The notes under the pieces: generated by a model
Databases searched by the model: none
What the model was told of the DNA's origin: nothing
Seen by the model: the letters and a program-made list of their open reading frames with translations, nothing else
Assembly: GCA_026989275.1 (NCBI GenBank)
Contig: JALSJQ010000014.1
Span: forward strand, 1-64,000
Length of the DNA stretch: 64,000 bases
Origin: Albidovulum sp.
GTDB taxonomy: Bacteria; Pseudomonadota; Alphaproteobacteria; Rhodobacterales; Rhodobacteraceae
Direction: 5' to 3'
Translations under genes and position numbers: made by a program
In this document: positions 21,798-26,842 of the stretch, one piece after another
How the letters are laid out: the number at the start of each line of letters is the position of its first letter
Numbering within the stretch: position 1 is the first letter of the stretch

Positions 21798-22292
21798 TCA
21801 GCCGAGCCGTTCCTTCACCAGCTTCCCGGCCCTGGCGAAGTCCATCCGGCCCGCATAGCGGGCCTTGAGCGCCCCCATCACCCGGCCCATGTCACGGATC
21901 GTTTCGGCCTTCTCGGCCCGGATGACCTCGTCGATCGCCTTCACCATCTCCTCGTCGGTCAGCTGCCGGGGCAGGAACTCCTCGATGACGCCGATCTCGT
22001 CGCGCTCCTTCTCCGCCAGCTCGAGACGGCCGCCCTCCTCATAGGCCCGGGCGCTCTCCTGACGTTGCCTGATCATCTTGCCGAGGACGGCGAGGATCTC
22101 CGCATCCGGGATACCCTCGCTGTTGCCTTCGCCACGGGCCGCGATGTCCCGATCCTTGATCGCCGCATCGATCAGCCGCAGGGTGGAAAGCCGCACCGTC
22201 TGCCGCGAACGCATCGCCTCCCTGAGCGCTTCGCGCAGCCGCTGCCGCAGGCCGGGCCCGCCTTCTTCCCCTGTCCGATCCTCGGTGCTCAT
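21798..22292 (-). CDS. GatB/YqeY domain protein
   Basis: A 164-residue helical protein. RLSTLRLIDAAIKDRDI, EILAVLGKMIRQRQESA and MGRVMGALKARYAGRMD match the YqeY family, related to the tRNA-binding tail of GatB. Its exact function is unsettled; a role with tRNA-dependent amidation is suggested by homology. ATG at 22292 is the first start after low-complexity sequence. It is divergent from carA, an arrangement common in alphaproteobacteria. Confidence 0.9.
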   Translation of the reverse strand: MSTEDRTGEEGGPGLRQRLREALREAMRSRQTVRLSTLRLIDAAIKDRDIAARGEGNSEGIPDAEILAVLGKMIRQRQESARAYEEGGRLELAEKERDEIGVIEEFLPRQLTDEEMVKAIDEVIRAEKAETIRDMGRVMGALKARYAGRMDFARAGKLVKERLG

Positions 22293-22482
22293 GGCATCAT
22301 CCGTTGCAGCACCGGCGCGCTCTGCCGGCCGGGGGACAATAGCCCGTGATCCCCCCCTTCTCAAGCCTCGCCCCCGGTCGGCGCCGCTTGACCATGGAGC
22401 GGTCAATCCGTATCTGTCGGCCGATCGGGCGGCAGGCGCGCCCCTCCCGTGGCGCAGAGCCCTTCAGGAAACAGGAAACGCC

Positions 22483-23643
22483 ATGTCCTCCCCCTCCGGC
22501 AAGCCCACAGGCTGCATCGTTCTGGCCAATGGCGCCGTCTTTCATGGCGAAGGCTTCGGCCGCGTCGGCTCGGTGGCGGCCGAACTCGTCTTCAACACGG
22601 CCATGACCGGCTACCAGGAGATCATGACCGACCCGTCCTATGCCGGGCAGGTGGTGACCTTCACCTTCCCCCATGTCGGCAATGTCGGCGTCAACCCCGA
22701 AGACGACGAATCGCGCGCCGCCTTCGCCGAAGGCATGGTGGTGCACTGGCGACCGACCGAACCTTCCAACTGGCGCGCCTCCGCACCGCTGCGCACATGG
22801 CTCGAGCGGCAGGGCCGGATCGGCATCGGCGGGGTGGACACGCGGCGGCTGACCCGGGCGATCCGTCAGCAGGGCGCGCCCAACGCCGTCATCGCCCATG
22901 ATCCGAACGGCGATTTCGATCTGGAGGCGCTGCGGGCAGAAGCCTTGGCCTTCCGCGGGCTCGAAGGGCTCGATCTCGCCAGGGAGGTCACCTGTGGGCA
23001 GACCTACCGGTGGAACGAGACGCGCTGGCGCTGGCCCGAAGGCTACGGCAGGCGCAGCGGCCCCGGTCGGCGCGTGGTGGCGGTCGATTACGGCGCCAAG
23101 CGAAACATCCTGCGCTCGCTGGCCTCGGCCGGCTGCGACGTCACCGTGCTGCCCGCCACCGCCACCGCCGAAGACATCCTTGCGCACGAACCCGAGGGGG
23201 TGTTCCTGTCGAACGGCCCGGGCGACCCGGCCGCCACCGGCGAATACGCCGTGCCGATGATCCGCCATCTCCTCGAACGGACCGACCTGCCGATCTTCGG
23301 CATCTGCCTCGGGCACCAGATGCTGGCCCTCGCCCTCGGCGCCCGGACGGTCAAGATGAATCACGGCCATCACGGCGCCAATCATCCGGTGAAGAATCTG
23401 GAAACCGGAAGGGTCGAGATCACATCGATGAACCACGGTTTCACGGTGGACACCGCCTCGCTGCCCGAAGGGGTGATCGAAACCCACGTCTCGCTCTTCG
23501 ACGGCACCAATTGCGGCATCCGCATGACCGACCGGGCCGTCTTTTCCGTGCAATATCACCCCGAAGCGAGTCCCGGCCCGCAGGACAGCGCCTATCTCTT
23601 CGACCGTTTCGTCGAGGCGATGGGTGGCCCGATCGCGGGCTGA
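22483..23643 (+). CDS. carA: Carbamoyl-phosphate synthase small subunit
   Basis: A 386-residue glutaminase subunit that feeds ammonia to CarB for arginine and pyrimidine synthesis. The N-terminal domain has the NTAMTGYQEIMTDPSY signature; the class I amidotransferase triad is Cys in FGICLGHQ plus His and Glu in QYHPEASPGP. FLSNGPGDP is intact. CarB is not in the window. The 190-base gap to the divergent YqeY gene must hold both promoters. Confidence 0.97.
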   Translation: MSSPSGKPTGCIVLANGAVFHGEGFGRVGSVAAELVFNTAMTGYQEIMTDPSYAGQVVTFTFPHVGNVGVNPEDDESRAAFAEGMVVHWRPTEPSNWRASAPLRTWLERQGRIGIGGVDTRRLTRAIRQQGAPNAVIAHDPNGDFDLEALRAEALAFRGLEGLDLAREVTCGQTYRWNETRWRWPEGYGRRSGPGRRVVAVDYGAKRNILRSLASAGCDVTVLPATATAEDILAHEPEGVFLSNGPGDPAATGEYAVPMIRHLLERTDLPIFGICLGHQMLALALGARTVKMNHGHHGANHPVKNLETGRVEITSMNHGFTVDTASLPEGVIETHVSLFDGTNCGIRMTDRAVFSVQYHPEASPGPQDSAYLFDRFVEAMGGPIAG

Positions 23644-23804: not shown

Positions 23805-23820
23805 TTAACGATCTCTTAAC
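23805..23820 (+). promoter_or_regulatory. CtrA-type binding site
   Basis: TTAA-CGATCTC-TTAAC matches the full alphaproteobacterial CtrA consensus TTAA-N7-TTAAC exactly, and is followed by CAT as in many strong sites. It lies 36 bases before the glycosyltransferase start, where a bound regulator would cover or adjoin the promoter. In such a G+C-rich setting this AT pattern is unlikely by chance. Confidence 0.75.
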
Positions 23821-23855
23821 CATCCGCATGCATAGCTGCCCCCGGGAGGGGGACG

Positions 23856-25793
23856 ATGGGGCGCACGCGCAGGGAACCCACATCGCGGAAACGGACGGGC
23901 GGAGCATCGGGCTTCGGCGAATTGCCGCAAACGGCCTTCGTCCCGGCCGACGGCCGGGCGCTCCGCGGGTCACCCTCCCCGCCGGTCGATGATGCGCTCC
24001 GGGCCCGGGGGCTGGTTCTGGCCCGCGCCGAGGGCACGCGGCCCGAACTGGCCCTGCGGGCACGCGGCCTGATCGACGATGCCGGCTTCGCCGCGCTTCT
24101 GTCCGACGATCTGGCCATCCCCCGAATCGACCTTGCCGCCAGTCCTCCCATGCCGGCCCTGCTCGCTGCCGCCGACCCGGTCGCGTGTCTTCGCCATGAT
24201 GCGGTGCCGTGGCGCGAGGAGGCGGGCCGGATCGTCTGGGCGGTGGCCGACCCGGTCGATCTCGCCGCACGCGAGGCGCTGCCCGCGGCTTTCGTGATCG
24301 CCCCGCGGGAACAGATCCGCCGCACCGTTCATGCGGCCCATGCGGCGGCTCTCGTGGCCCGGGCCGAGAACCTCTGCCCGCACACGAAAAGCTGTCGCAG
24401 CTGGCTGCGGCCGATCCGGCCCGCCGCACTCGTCCTCGCCGGGCTGATCGTGGCACTTGCAGCCGCCGCCTTTCCCGCAGGGGCGGCCCTCGCCGTCGTC
24501 GTCGTCGCCTTCGCGACGCTCGGCGCCAACATCACCCTGCGGCTGCTCGGGCTTCTTGCCGCCTGCCGTCCCCGCCCGGAAACGCCCCCTCCGCCGGATC
24601 GGCGCGCCCTGCCTTTCATCACGCTGATGCTGCCGCTTCACCGCGAGAACGGCACCCTCGCCCAGCTTCTCGCCGCCCTCGAACAGCTTCATTACCCGCC
24701 CTCGAAATGCGAATTCCTGCTGATCACCGAGGCGGACGACACCCTGACCCGCGCATCCCTTGCCCGTTACCGACTGCCTGCAAATGCCCGGGTGGTGATC
24801 GTTCCCGGGGGCCGGGTGCAGACCAAGCCGCGCGCGCTCAACTTTGCCCTGCCCGAAGCGCGGGGAGACATCGTCGGCGTGCTCGACGCGGAGGACCGGC
24901 CCGAGCCCGACCAGCTGCTGCGCATCGCCGCCGCCTTCGCCGCCGGTGGCGCGCGACTGGCCTGCGTGCAAGGCACGCTCGACTTCTACAACGGCAGGGA
25001 AAACTGGATCGCACGCTGCTTCACCATCGAATATGCCACCTGGTTCCGCATCGTCCTGCCGGCCTTCGCGCGTTTCGGCCTGCCGGTGCCGCTAGGCGGC
25101 ACGACGATGTATGTGCGCCGCGACGTGCTCGAGGCCGTCGGCGGCTGGGACGCGCACAACGTCACCGAAGACGCCGATCTCGGCCTGCGTCTCGCCCGCG
25201 AAGGATGGGAGACGCAGCTGCTGCCGACCACCACCTTCGAGGAAGCCAATCACCGCCCCTGGCGCTGGATCCGGCAACGCTCGCGTTGGCTCAAGGGTTA
25301 TGCCGTCACCTGGATCACCCACATGCGCCATCCGCGCGCGGCGGTGCGGGCCTTCGGCTGGCGGGCCATTCTGGCGCTCAACGCCCATTTCGCCGGCACG
25401 CTCTGCGCTTTCCTGCTGGCGCCGCTCTACTGGACCATGTGGATGGAGTTCGCCGGCCTGCATCACCCGCTTCTCGTCCTTGCCGGCCTGCCTCCCGCGA
25501 GCGGCAGAGTGCTTCTCGGCTTCTTTCTCGGCAGCGCGCTGGTGCAGTATCTTGCCGGCTTCGTCGCCCTGGCCCCGCCGCATCTGCGGACCCATCGCTG
25601 GTGGCTGCCGACGCTCGGCTTCTACTGGCCGATGGCTAGCATCGCCCTGATGAAGGCGCTGTGGGAACTGCCCTTCCGCCCCTGGCACTGGGACAAGACC
25701 GAGCACGGAACGAGCCGGAGGGGAACGGAAGGAACGGCCACTATCAGCGGCGGCGACACCGGGCAGGGACGGCGGGCCGCCCCATCGGCCTGA
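23856..25793 (+). CDS. Membrane glycosyltransferase 2 with GspE-N/MshEN-like N terminus
   Basis: A 645-residue inner-membrane protein. Residues about 65-160 (GLIDDAGFAALL..., AADPVACLRHDAVPW..., WAVADPVDL) resemble the GspE N-terminal/MshEN domain, members of which bind cyclic di-GMP. Two helices (about 188-235) lead to a GT-A domain: DAED (344-347), TEDAD (437-441) and QRSRWLKGY (474-482), the processive cellulose-synthase-like set, followed by several helices. This resembles XagB-type polysaccharide synthases. GGGAGGGGGACG precedes the ATG and a CtrA site lies just upstream, suggesting cell-cycle or motility-linked surface polysaccharide export. Confidence 0.88.
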   Translation: MGRTRREPTSRKRTGGASGFGELPQTAFVPADGRALRGSPSPPVDDALRARGLVLARAEGTRPELALRARGLIDDAGFAALLSDDLAIPRIDLAASPPMPALLAAADPVACLRHDAVPWREEAGRIVWAVADPVDLAAREALPAAFVIAPREQIRRTVHAAHAAALVARAENLCPHTKSCRSWLRPIRPAALVLAGLIVALAAAAFPAGAALAVVVVAFATLGANITLRLLGLLAACRPRPETPPPPDRRALPFITLMLPLHRENGTLAQLLAALEQLHYPPSKCEFLLITEADDTLTRASLARYRLPANARVVIVPGGRVQTKPRALNFALPEARGDIVGVLDAEDRPEPDQLLRIAAAFAAGGARLACVQGTLDFYNGRENWIARCFTIEYATWFRIVLPAFARFGLPVPLGGTTMYVRRDVLEAVGGWDAHNVTEDADLGLRLAREGWETQLLPTTTFEEANHRPWRWIRQRSRWLKGYAVTWITHMRHPRAAVRAFGWRAILALNAHFAGTLCAFLLAPLYWTMWMEFAGLHHPLLVLAGLPPASGRVLLGFFLGSALVQYLAGFVALAPPHLRTHRWWLPTLGFYWPMASIALMKALWELPFRPWHWDKTEHGTSRRGTEGTATISGGDTGQGRRAAPSA

Positions 25794-26027: not shown

Positions 26028-26732
26028 TCAGCCCCCAGTTCCTCCCTTGCCGGGGGGAGACGCCAGCGCATCGGCCGCCGGCACCTCGCCCGCGCCCAGA
26101 AGCAGCCGGGTCTCGAAGGCGCGCGAGAGATGACGCCTGAGCGCCTCGTCCGCGGCCACCTCGTCCCGCCGCTCGATGGCCGAAACGATGGCTTCGTGCT
26201 CCTCGAGCGCCTCCCGGTCCCGGCCCGGAACCGCAAGGGAGGTCGTCGCCATCAGCGCCATCGAACGATAGACGAGATCGAGCTGCTGCACGAGGTAGCG
26301 GTTGTGACTCGCCAGATGCAGCTGGTTGTGAAAGCGGCGATTGGCGCGGGCCATGGCCTGGGCATCTCCCACGAGCCTGCGGTCCTGGGTCACCATTTCC
26401 CGCAGCACCCGCATCTCCTCCGGAGCGGCATGACGCGCCGCCAGCCGCGCCGCGAGCGCCTCGAGTTCGGTGCGAACGGCATAAAGTTCCGACAGCTGGT
26501 TGTGATCGAGCGAGGCGACGATCAGGCTGCGCCCGTCGCGCGTCAGCAGCGACTGGATCTCCAGCCGCTGCAACGCCTCGCGAATCGGGGTGCGCGACAT
26601 GCCGAAGCGCTCGGCAAGCTCGCTCTCGACCAACCGGTCCCCGGGCTTGTAGATGCCGACGTCGATCGCCTCGAGAATGAGATCGTAGGCATCCTTCTGA
26701 CCGTCGCGCGCCGCGCTGCCCTGCCTTGCCAT
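26028..26732 (-). CDS. GntR family (FadR/FCD) transcriptional regulator
   Basis: A 234-residue DNA-binding protein. The winged helix is at the N terminus (ESELAERFGMSRTPIREALQRLE), and the FCD effector domain follows with metal-site residues spread through ELYAVRTELEALAARLAA, ANRRFHNQLH and EEHEAIVSAIERRD. The ligand is probably a small carboxylate, by family. The start at 26732 follows GAGGGAAG; a longer form is possible. It is divergent from the HAD gene, 110 bases away, and may regulate it. Confidence 0.9.
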   Translation of the reverse strand: MARQGSAARDGQKDAYDLILEAIDVGIYKPGDRLVESELAERFGMSRTPIREALQRLEIQSLLTRDGRSLIVASLDHNQLSELYAVRTELEALAARLAARHAAPEEMRVLREMVTQDRRLVGDAQAMARANRRFHNQLHLASHNRYLVQQLDLVYRSMALMATTSLAVPGRDREALEEHEAIVSAIERRDEVAADEALRRHLSRAFETRLLLGAGEVPAADALASPPGKGGTGG

Positions 26733-26842
26733 GAGCTTCCCTCGGCTCGGGGTTCGCCTGGAGGGCGGCGAATCGCTCCGGATCCGTCCCCCTTTCTTCA
26801 AAAGCCCCCGAGCGCGGCGCCGTCAAGCGGGCTTGCATCGGG

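Follow-up and report, generated by a model that had tools for sequence, protein, structure and literature searches.

We report a gene whose upstream DNA and product together point to a surface-glycan synthase with a CtrA-activated promoter, one that has lost its response to c-di-GMP and kept the MshEN domain, a combined reading that we regard as probable. The gene lies in the window (the whole 64-kb stretch of DNA that was analysed), where the following features were assigned.

22078–23643, + strand: carA-like gene (start approximate; named by sequence reading), upstream of the MshEN-GT2 gene
23805–23820, + strand: CtrA-type box TTAAC-N6-TTAAC, the sole such site in the window and conserved upstream of the family's genes
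23832–23837, + strand: putative -10 element ATAGCT, placed by its position in the family alignment, which the window fits partly
23839–23852, + strand: hairpin CCCCC-GGGA-GGGGG in the leader, covering the ribosome-binding G run (-11.2 kcal/mol, z -1.9)
23856–25793, + strand: MshEN-GT2 membrane glycosyltransferase, 645 aa (Pfam, ORF and invariant signatures)
23988–24113, + strand: remnant of the MshEN N-subdomain (residues 45–86), with three modelled helices rather than four, motif I lost and motif II degenerate
24114–24335, + strand: MshEN C-subdomain (residues 87–160), from Pfam PF05157 and a fold match
24618–25445, + strand: GT2 region (residues 255–530) with processive-type signatures (PF13632, PF13641)
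26028–26801, - strand: GntR-type regulator gene (start approximate; named by sequence reading), convergent with and downstream of the MshEN-GT2 gene

The original prediction placed a TTAA-N7-TTAAC site 36 bases before the gene, and the sequence bears this out. The box, TTAACGATCTCTTAAC (23805–23820, + strand), reads both as TTAAC-N6-TTAAC and as TTAA-N7-TTAAC, and 36 nt separate its final base from the ATG at 23856. This ATG opens an ORF of 645 aa (23856–25793, + strand) that has no earlier start, an in-frame stop lying 13 codons upstream. At 68 % GC, the window holds only three TTAA words, two of which make up the box; TTAA-N7-TTAA(C) occurs once in the window, at 23805–23820, and in 0/100 dinucleotide shuffles of it. 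The genome to which the window belongs (2.57 Mb, 50 contigs) returned four matches to TTAA-N7-TTAAC vs three for the reversed control, i.e. no enrichment, and two matches vs none for the stricter TTAAC-N6-TTAAC. As the TTAA-N7-TTAAC count does not exceed its control, the presence of the box by itself is suggestive only and amounts to modest evidence; the strong evidence is its conservation across loci. The other of the two TTAAC-N6-TTAAC sites in this genome (L003, 1501–1516, contig C22) lies 107 nt before an ORF (1623–2531) that reads like an OlsB-type acyltransferase, potentially another envelope target of CtrA.

A protein search (E 1e-20) matched the glycosyltransferase gene in 177/198 sampled Rhodobacteraceae genomes, its own included, with a median identity of 42 %; nine of the 177 genomes returned two matches, and matches at weaker E-values may be paralogues. 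We read 149 loci, the window and 148 orthologues among the matches listed, leaving out the weakest-scoring matches and one duplicate (L160). TTAA-N7-TTAA is present upstream of the gene in 127 of these loci, window included; most orthologues keep the exact box at spacing 7. Within a fixed upstream stretch of 230 nt, the pair was found in 125/149 loci, compared with 0–5/149 for each of the spacings 2–6 and 8–15 and with 0.2 loci expected from how often it occurs in the remainder of these loci (6 in 1.01 Mb). It also ranked first (125/149) when all pairs of 4-mers were counted without a prior. Nineteen of the 22 loci that lack the exact box have a one-mismatch box 30–60 nt before a possible start, a position at which 0.016 such boxes are expected per locus. 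Named records, drawn partly from the same genomes as the 149-locus set, gave the exact box in 68/80 loci. A chance origin of the box is rejected by these conservation and spacing controls, though the counts in the window's own genome alone would not show that.

Three or four half-sites at 11-bp steps were found in 12/149 loci and in 7/80 loci of named records. Four TTAAC half-sites in this arrangement are present in L169, from an Albidovulum sp. MAG, the nearest relative found (79 % identity). The gene neighbourhood is conserved too, with a related carA-like ORF preceding the gene in the same orientation in 142/149 loci and a related convergent GntR-type ORF downstream in 136/149; beyond these two neighbours, no conserved operon partner was found next to the gene in the 149 loci. 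In a sample of the order, the gene was absent from 7/196 genomes, six of which belong to one genus (code g200) whose other members keep it. Outside the Rhodobacteraceae, 15 of the 190 genomes of the class that were searched contained homologues at E 1e-60 or better. The box was upstream of none of the seven homologues read (0/7), and 3/7 carry a strong dual c-di-GMP motif (14–16 of 18 positions), which suggests, from few loci, that the MshEN-GT2 fusion is older than its CtrA wiring.

The box sits at a promoter-like position. Its distance to the ATG is steady (median 47 nt; 36–61 nt in 86/101 loci where a single box and an in-frame ATG occur). Downstream, over 127 loci, A is mildly enriched at +27/+28 and T at +31/+32, counted from the first base of the box, which gives a weak -10 signal. 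Activating CtrA sites lie near -35 in Caulobacter crescentus, and 12–33 bp separate start site and start codon in the CtrA promoters of the Rhodobacter sphaeroides fla2 genes, as described in passages of PMC6180460. A hairpin over the ribosome-binding G run also occurs in L169 (2972–2997); as a family trait, the leader hairpin was rejected (104 leaders, median z 0.37, z < -1.5 in 10).

Relative to a Caulobacter CtrA reference sequence, the window's genome encodes one close ctrA product (73 % identity over 224 aa) with a nearly identical recognition stretch. A single half-site, TTAACGAGTTCATGG, lies 53 nt before this ctrA (L097), indicating possible autoregulation. Since the footprint is family-wide, its position promoter-like and ctrA present in the genome, CtrA control of the processive-type glycosyltransferase, as originally proposed, appears well supported. 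It is very unlikely that the box is instead bound by another regulator recognising TTAAC direct repeats: its spacing and sequence equal the C. crescentus consensus that was used for Dinoroseobacter shibae (PMC4046655), and the gene is absent in 13/16 genomes without detected ctrA vs 8/182 genomes with it (relatedness ignored). Moreover, TTAAC-N6-TTAAC outnumbers its control across 57 sampled genomes that do not count as ctrA-less (459 vs 218 matches, 50 of the former from G034) and does not do so across four ctrA-less genomes (10 vs 100). What speaks for such a regulator is that two genomes contain the gene and no detected ctrA, namely G184 (2 contigs, 99 % complete), where an exact box is also present (L149), and G008 (82 % complete), and that a D. 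shibae Dnr/Fnr site has a half-site in common with CtrA (PMC7232146). CenR was rejected as the binder, as the conserved pair is TTAA-N7-TTAA and the CenR motif differs (TGA-N8-TGA, as given in PMC9275681).

Three genomes of this set deserve separate mention. For G184, the alternatives are an assembly that has missed ctrA and a different regulator acting at the box; in G006, the DNA-binding half of ctrA was found in a short frame. G034 returned 50 TTAAC-N6-TTAAC matches vs one for the control, approximately seven times the median of its sampled relatives, suggesting either a CtrA regulon that has grown considerably or a repeated element bearing the site.

The product itself was assigned to glycosyltransferase family 2 by Pfam (PF13632, residues 340–530, E 1.2e-29; PF13641, residues 255–480, E 3.5e-23). 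D295, DAED (344–347), TED (437–439) and QRSRW (474–478) are invariant in 18/18 aligned proteins; the D, DxD-like, TED and QxxRW residues are thus all present, consistent with the predicted processive-type enzyme. Putative membrane helices around this domain were read from hydrophobic stretches. None of the NCBIfam models passed its cut-off, the best being PgaC (54 bits vs 422) and the match to the CelA model falling far below its threshold; among solved proteins, cellulose synthases come closest in sequence (E 7e-6). A surface glycan is the probable product, which the protein would both synthesise and extrude.

N-terminal to this region, Pfam detected an MshEN domain (PF05157, residues 87–160, 45.9 bits, cut-off 23.1), so the fusion of a GspE-N/MshEN domain with a glycosyltransferase (GT2, residues 255–530) stands as predicted. 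The match lies C-terminal to the stretch expected to hold the c-di-GMP motifs, which are described as a tandem RLGxx..xxG..xxxxLxxxLxxQ of two 24-residue motifs joined by a 5-residue linker (PMC5013675). We scored 18 motif positions in 141 proteins with a length of 560 aa or more, the window's included, taking 13 or more as a clear dual motif. The scores are bimodal: 79/141 proteins reach 13 compared with 0/2820 shuffles, and the exact 5-residue linker is present in 108/141 best placements. The same threshold is reached by 46 of the 78 proteins taken from named records. The window protein, by comparison, scores 9 of 18, within the range of 1000 shuffles of itself, with most contact positions changed; its motif II begins with R-P-E instead of R-L-G and ends in D instead of Q. 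L169 also scores 9. A wrong start codon or a sequencing error hiding motif I was rejected: no other start lies between the ATG and the in-frame stop 13 codons before it, L169 has a similar N-terminus, and a start-independent scoring of the whole open stretch leaves the count at 79/141 and gives the window 8. In the family, the first arginine of the motif is often proline, and RLG-type starts together with Q in both motifs were found in only 7/141 proteins, so full-strength c-di-GMP binding in the other motif-intact proteins is itself no more than a prediction.

Modelling of the N-terminus gave a mixed answer: the fold is that of MshEN, but the first helix of motif I is missing. The AlphaFold2 model of residues 20–186 (mean pLDDT 88.8; residues 1–45 modelled with low confidence or not included) has three helices before the C-subdomain, whereas that of an intact orthologue from Maritimibacter fusiformis (L171) has four. 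Superposed on MshE with bound c-di-GMP (5htl), the window model aligned over 119 residues (Z 12.2, rmsd 3.6 Å; E 3.3e-6) and the orthologue over 137 (Z 19.0, rmsd 1.8 Å). An entry for PilB with PilZ (7lkm) ranked first for the window model by Foldseek, and VIA-align put it level with 5htl (Z 11.3 vs 12.2). The remnant domain looks selected, as judged from dN/dS between the window and L169 (one pair, simple method), with values of 0.17 for residues 45–86 and 0.20 for residues 87–160, next to 0.13 for the glycosyltransferase core and 0.89 for the N-terminal tail.

A quick tree of 138 glycosyltransferase domains has 20 changes of motif state, of which well supported branches force at least eight; it does not tell gains from losses. 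The exact box accompanies 66/76 motif-intact and 51/61 motif-lost rows, one row being unclassed. Our reading is that c-di-GMP control would be an option dropped in the window lineage, with CtrA control as the constant.

The mechanism that we propose is as follows. The box would serve as a promoter element activated by CtrA, with its centre near -35, and the gene would be transcribed alone; judging by position and conservation, phosphorylated CtrA would bind both TTAAC half-sites, which lie one helical turn from each other, and recruit RNA polymerase. The product would be a family-2 glycosyltransferase that is embedded in the membrane and has the residues of a processive polymer synthase. More than half of the proteins read keep the MshEN tandem motif, which binds c-di-GMP elsewhere and probably gates the enzyme in them. 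In the window lineage, the first helix of motif I and most contact residues are gone; most likely the protein no longer answers c-di-GMP, and the amount set by CtrA would for that reason be the main control, while selection would retain the remnant domain for a structural or docking role.

The original prediction went further, holding that CtrA sets the amount of the window protein and c-di-GMP switches its activity through the MshEN domain. Dual control of this kind fits the 79/141 proteins with a clear dual motif, but for the window protein allosteric c-di-GMP control now seems quite unlikely: the first helix of motif I is absent, motif II is altered at both ends, the score resembles that of shuffles and the nearest relative shows the same loss. 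Something can be said for it nonetheless, as the MshEN fold is present, the genome returned two GGDEF matches and, across the family, the gene was absent in 11/11 genomes without GGDEF vs 10/187 with it (relatedness ignored); these 11 genomes fall within the 13 with neither a detected ctrA nor the gene. Weak or altered ligand binding may also persist in the modelled domain, because single MshEN changes reduce NfrB function without abolishing it (PMC8669469). The proposed link to a motility switch is unlikely here, since no FliF match was found in this genome (99 % complete), and a flagellar link was rejected on the same ground.

What the remnant domain does now is a separate question. The N-terminal domain of PilB is known in complex with PilZ, and a tentative but reasonable option is that the domain has become a protein-docking module that recruits a regulator or a glycan-export partner. 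Purifying selection on both subdomains (dN/dS 0.17 and 0.20) and the rank of the PilB–PilZ entry agree with this; the absence of a partner gene among the conserved neighbours (carA-like and GntR-type) does not, and a purely structural role would account for the same data. A docking role would be compatible with our preferred explanation, of CtrA activation with the c-di-GMP response lost, and would simply name what remains for the domain to do.

A general prediction of envelope genes under CtrA already exists: for 10 organisms, envelope-biogenesis genes are predicted to be over-represented in the set of CtrA targets (PMC2877005). We found no paper that ties CtrA to an MshEN glycosyltransferase in the Rhodobacteraceae in a search that reached parts of the texts of PMC4046655, PMC6473078, PMC7232146, PMC11655674, PMC9430884 and PMC2877005; supplementary tables lay outside its reach, and a listing there is possible. 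What the window adds is a probable glycan synthase that is widespread and syntenic and has a conserved CtrA-type box; the Rhodobacterales, the order to which the family belongs, include rosette formers with polar adhesins of unknown synthesis (PMC9980756). It also looks like a natural experiment, in which a transcriptional switch is kept as a second-messenger pocket comes and goes. As the pocket varies while the box stays, the two layers of control should be separable by comparing intact and lost orthologues. A bolder proposal, which we consider unlikely, is that the synthase is the missing maker of the surface or polar-adhesin glycan of the Rhodobacterales, controlled by a CtrA and c-di-GMP AND gate from which lineages like that of the window have repeatedly removed the c-di-GMP gate, keeping the CtrA gate. 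If true, a single polypeptide would in most lineages have its amount licensed by CtrA and its activity by c-di-GMP.

Among known systems, the closest analogue is NfrB of Escherichia coli, likewise a GT2 enzyme with DxD, TED and QxxRW fused to an MshEN domain, and one for which c-di-GMP binding has been shown (PMC8669469). The two differ in that MshEN is C-terminal in NfrB and N-terminal in the window protein (MshEN 87–160, GT 255–530), that nfrB shares an operon with nfrA and ybcH while the window gene stands beside a carA-like gene, that the window protein scores 8 bits against the NCBIfam NfrB model (cut-off 1170) and that its c-di-GMP motif is lost. The N-terminal domain of MshE (5htl) has the same fold as the window domain and shares its two motifs and 5-residue linker with many of the orthologues; the window protein, however, lacks the first helix of motif I and most contact residues, and its domain is attached to a glycosyltransferase, a type of fusion mentioned in PMC5013675. 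Loss of c-di-GMP binding through changed key residues is described there for the Xanthomonas GspE protein XpsE (2d27).

On the promoter side, the site is reminiscent of CtrA-activated promoters of Caulobacter and the Rhodobacteraceae, with the same TTAA-N7-TTAAC; those sites lie near -35 in C. crescentus, and the leaders are short in R. sphaeroides. The targets named in those accounts are flagellar, quorum-sensing, cell-cycle and sigma-factor genes (PMC6180460, PMC4046655); by text search, neither 'glycosyl' nor 'polysaccharide' occurs in the main text of PMC4046655. A parallel in logic is the Caulobacter holdfast, where HfsJ is a surface-glycan glycosyltransferase under c-di-GMP and CtrA-linked control; rosette-forming Rhodobacterales are described in the same source as being without homologues of the hfsE-D and uppA-F clusters (PMC9980756). 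The routes differ, as CtrA in Caulobacter acts on hfiA, whose product inhibits HfsJ (PMC9980756), whereas in the window it would act directly on the promoter of the glycosyltransferase gene.
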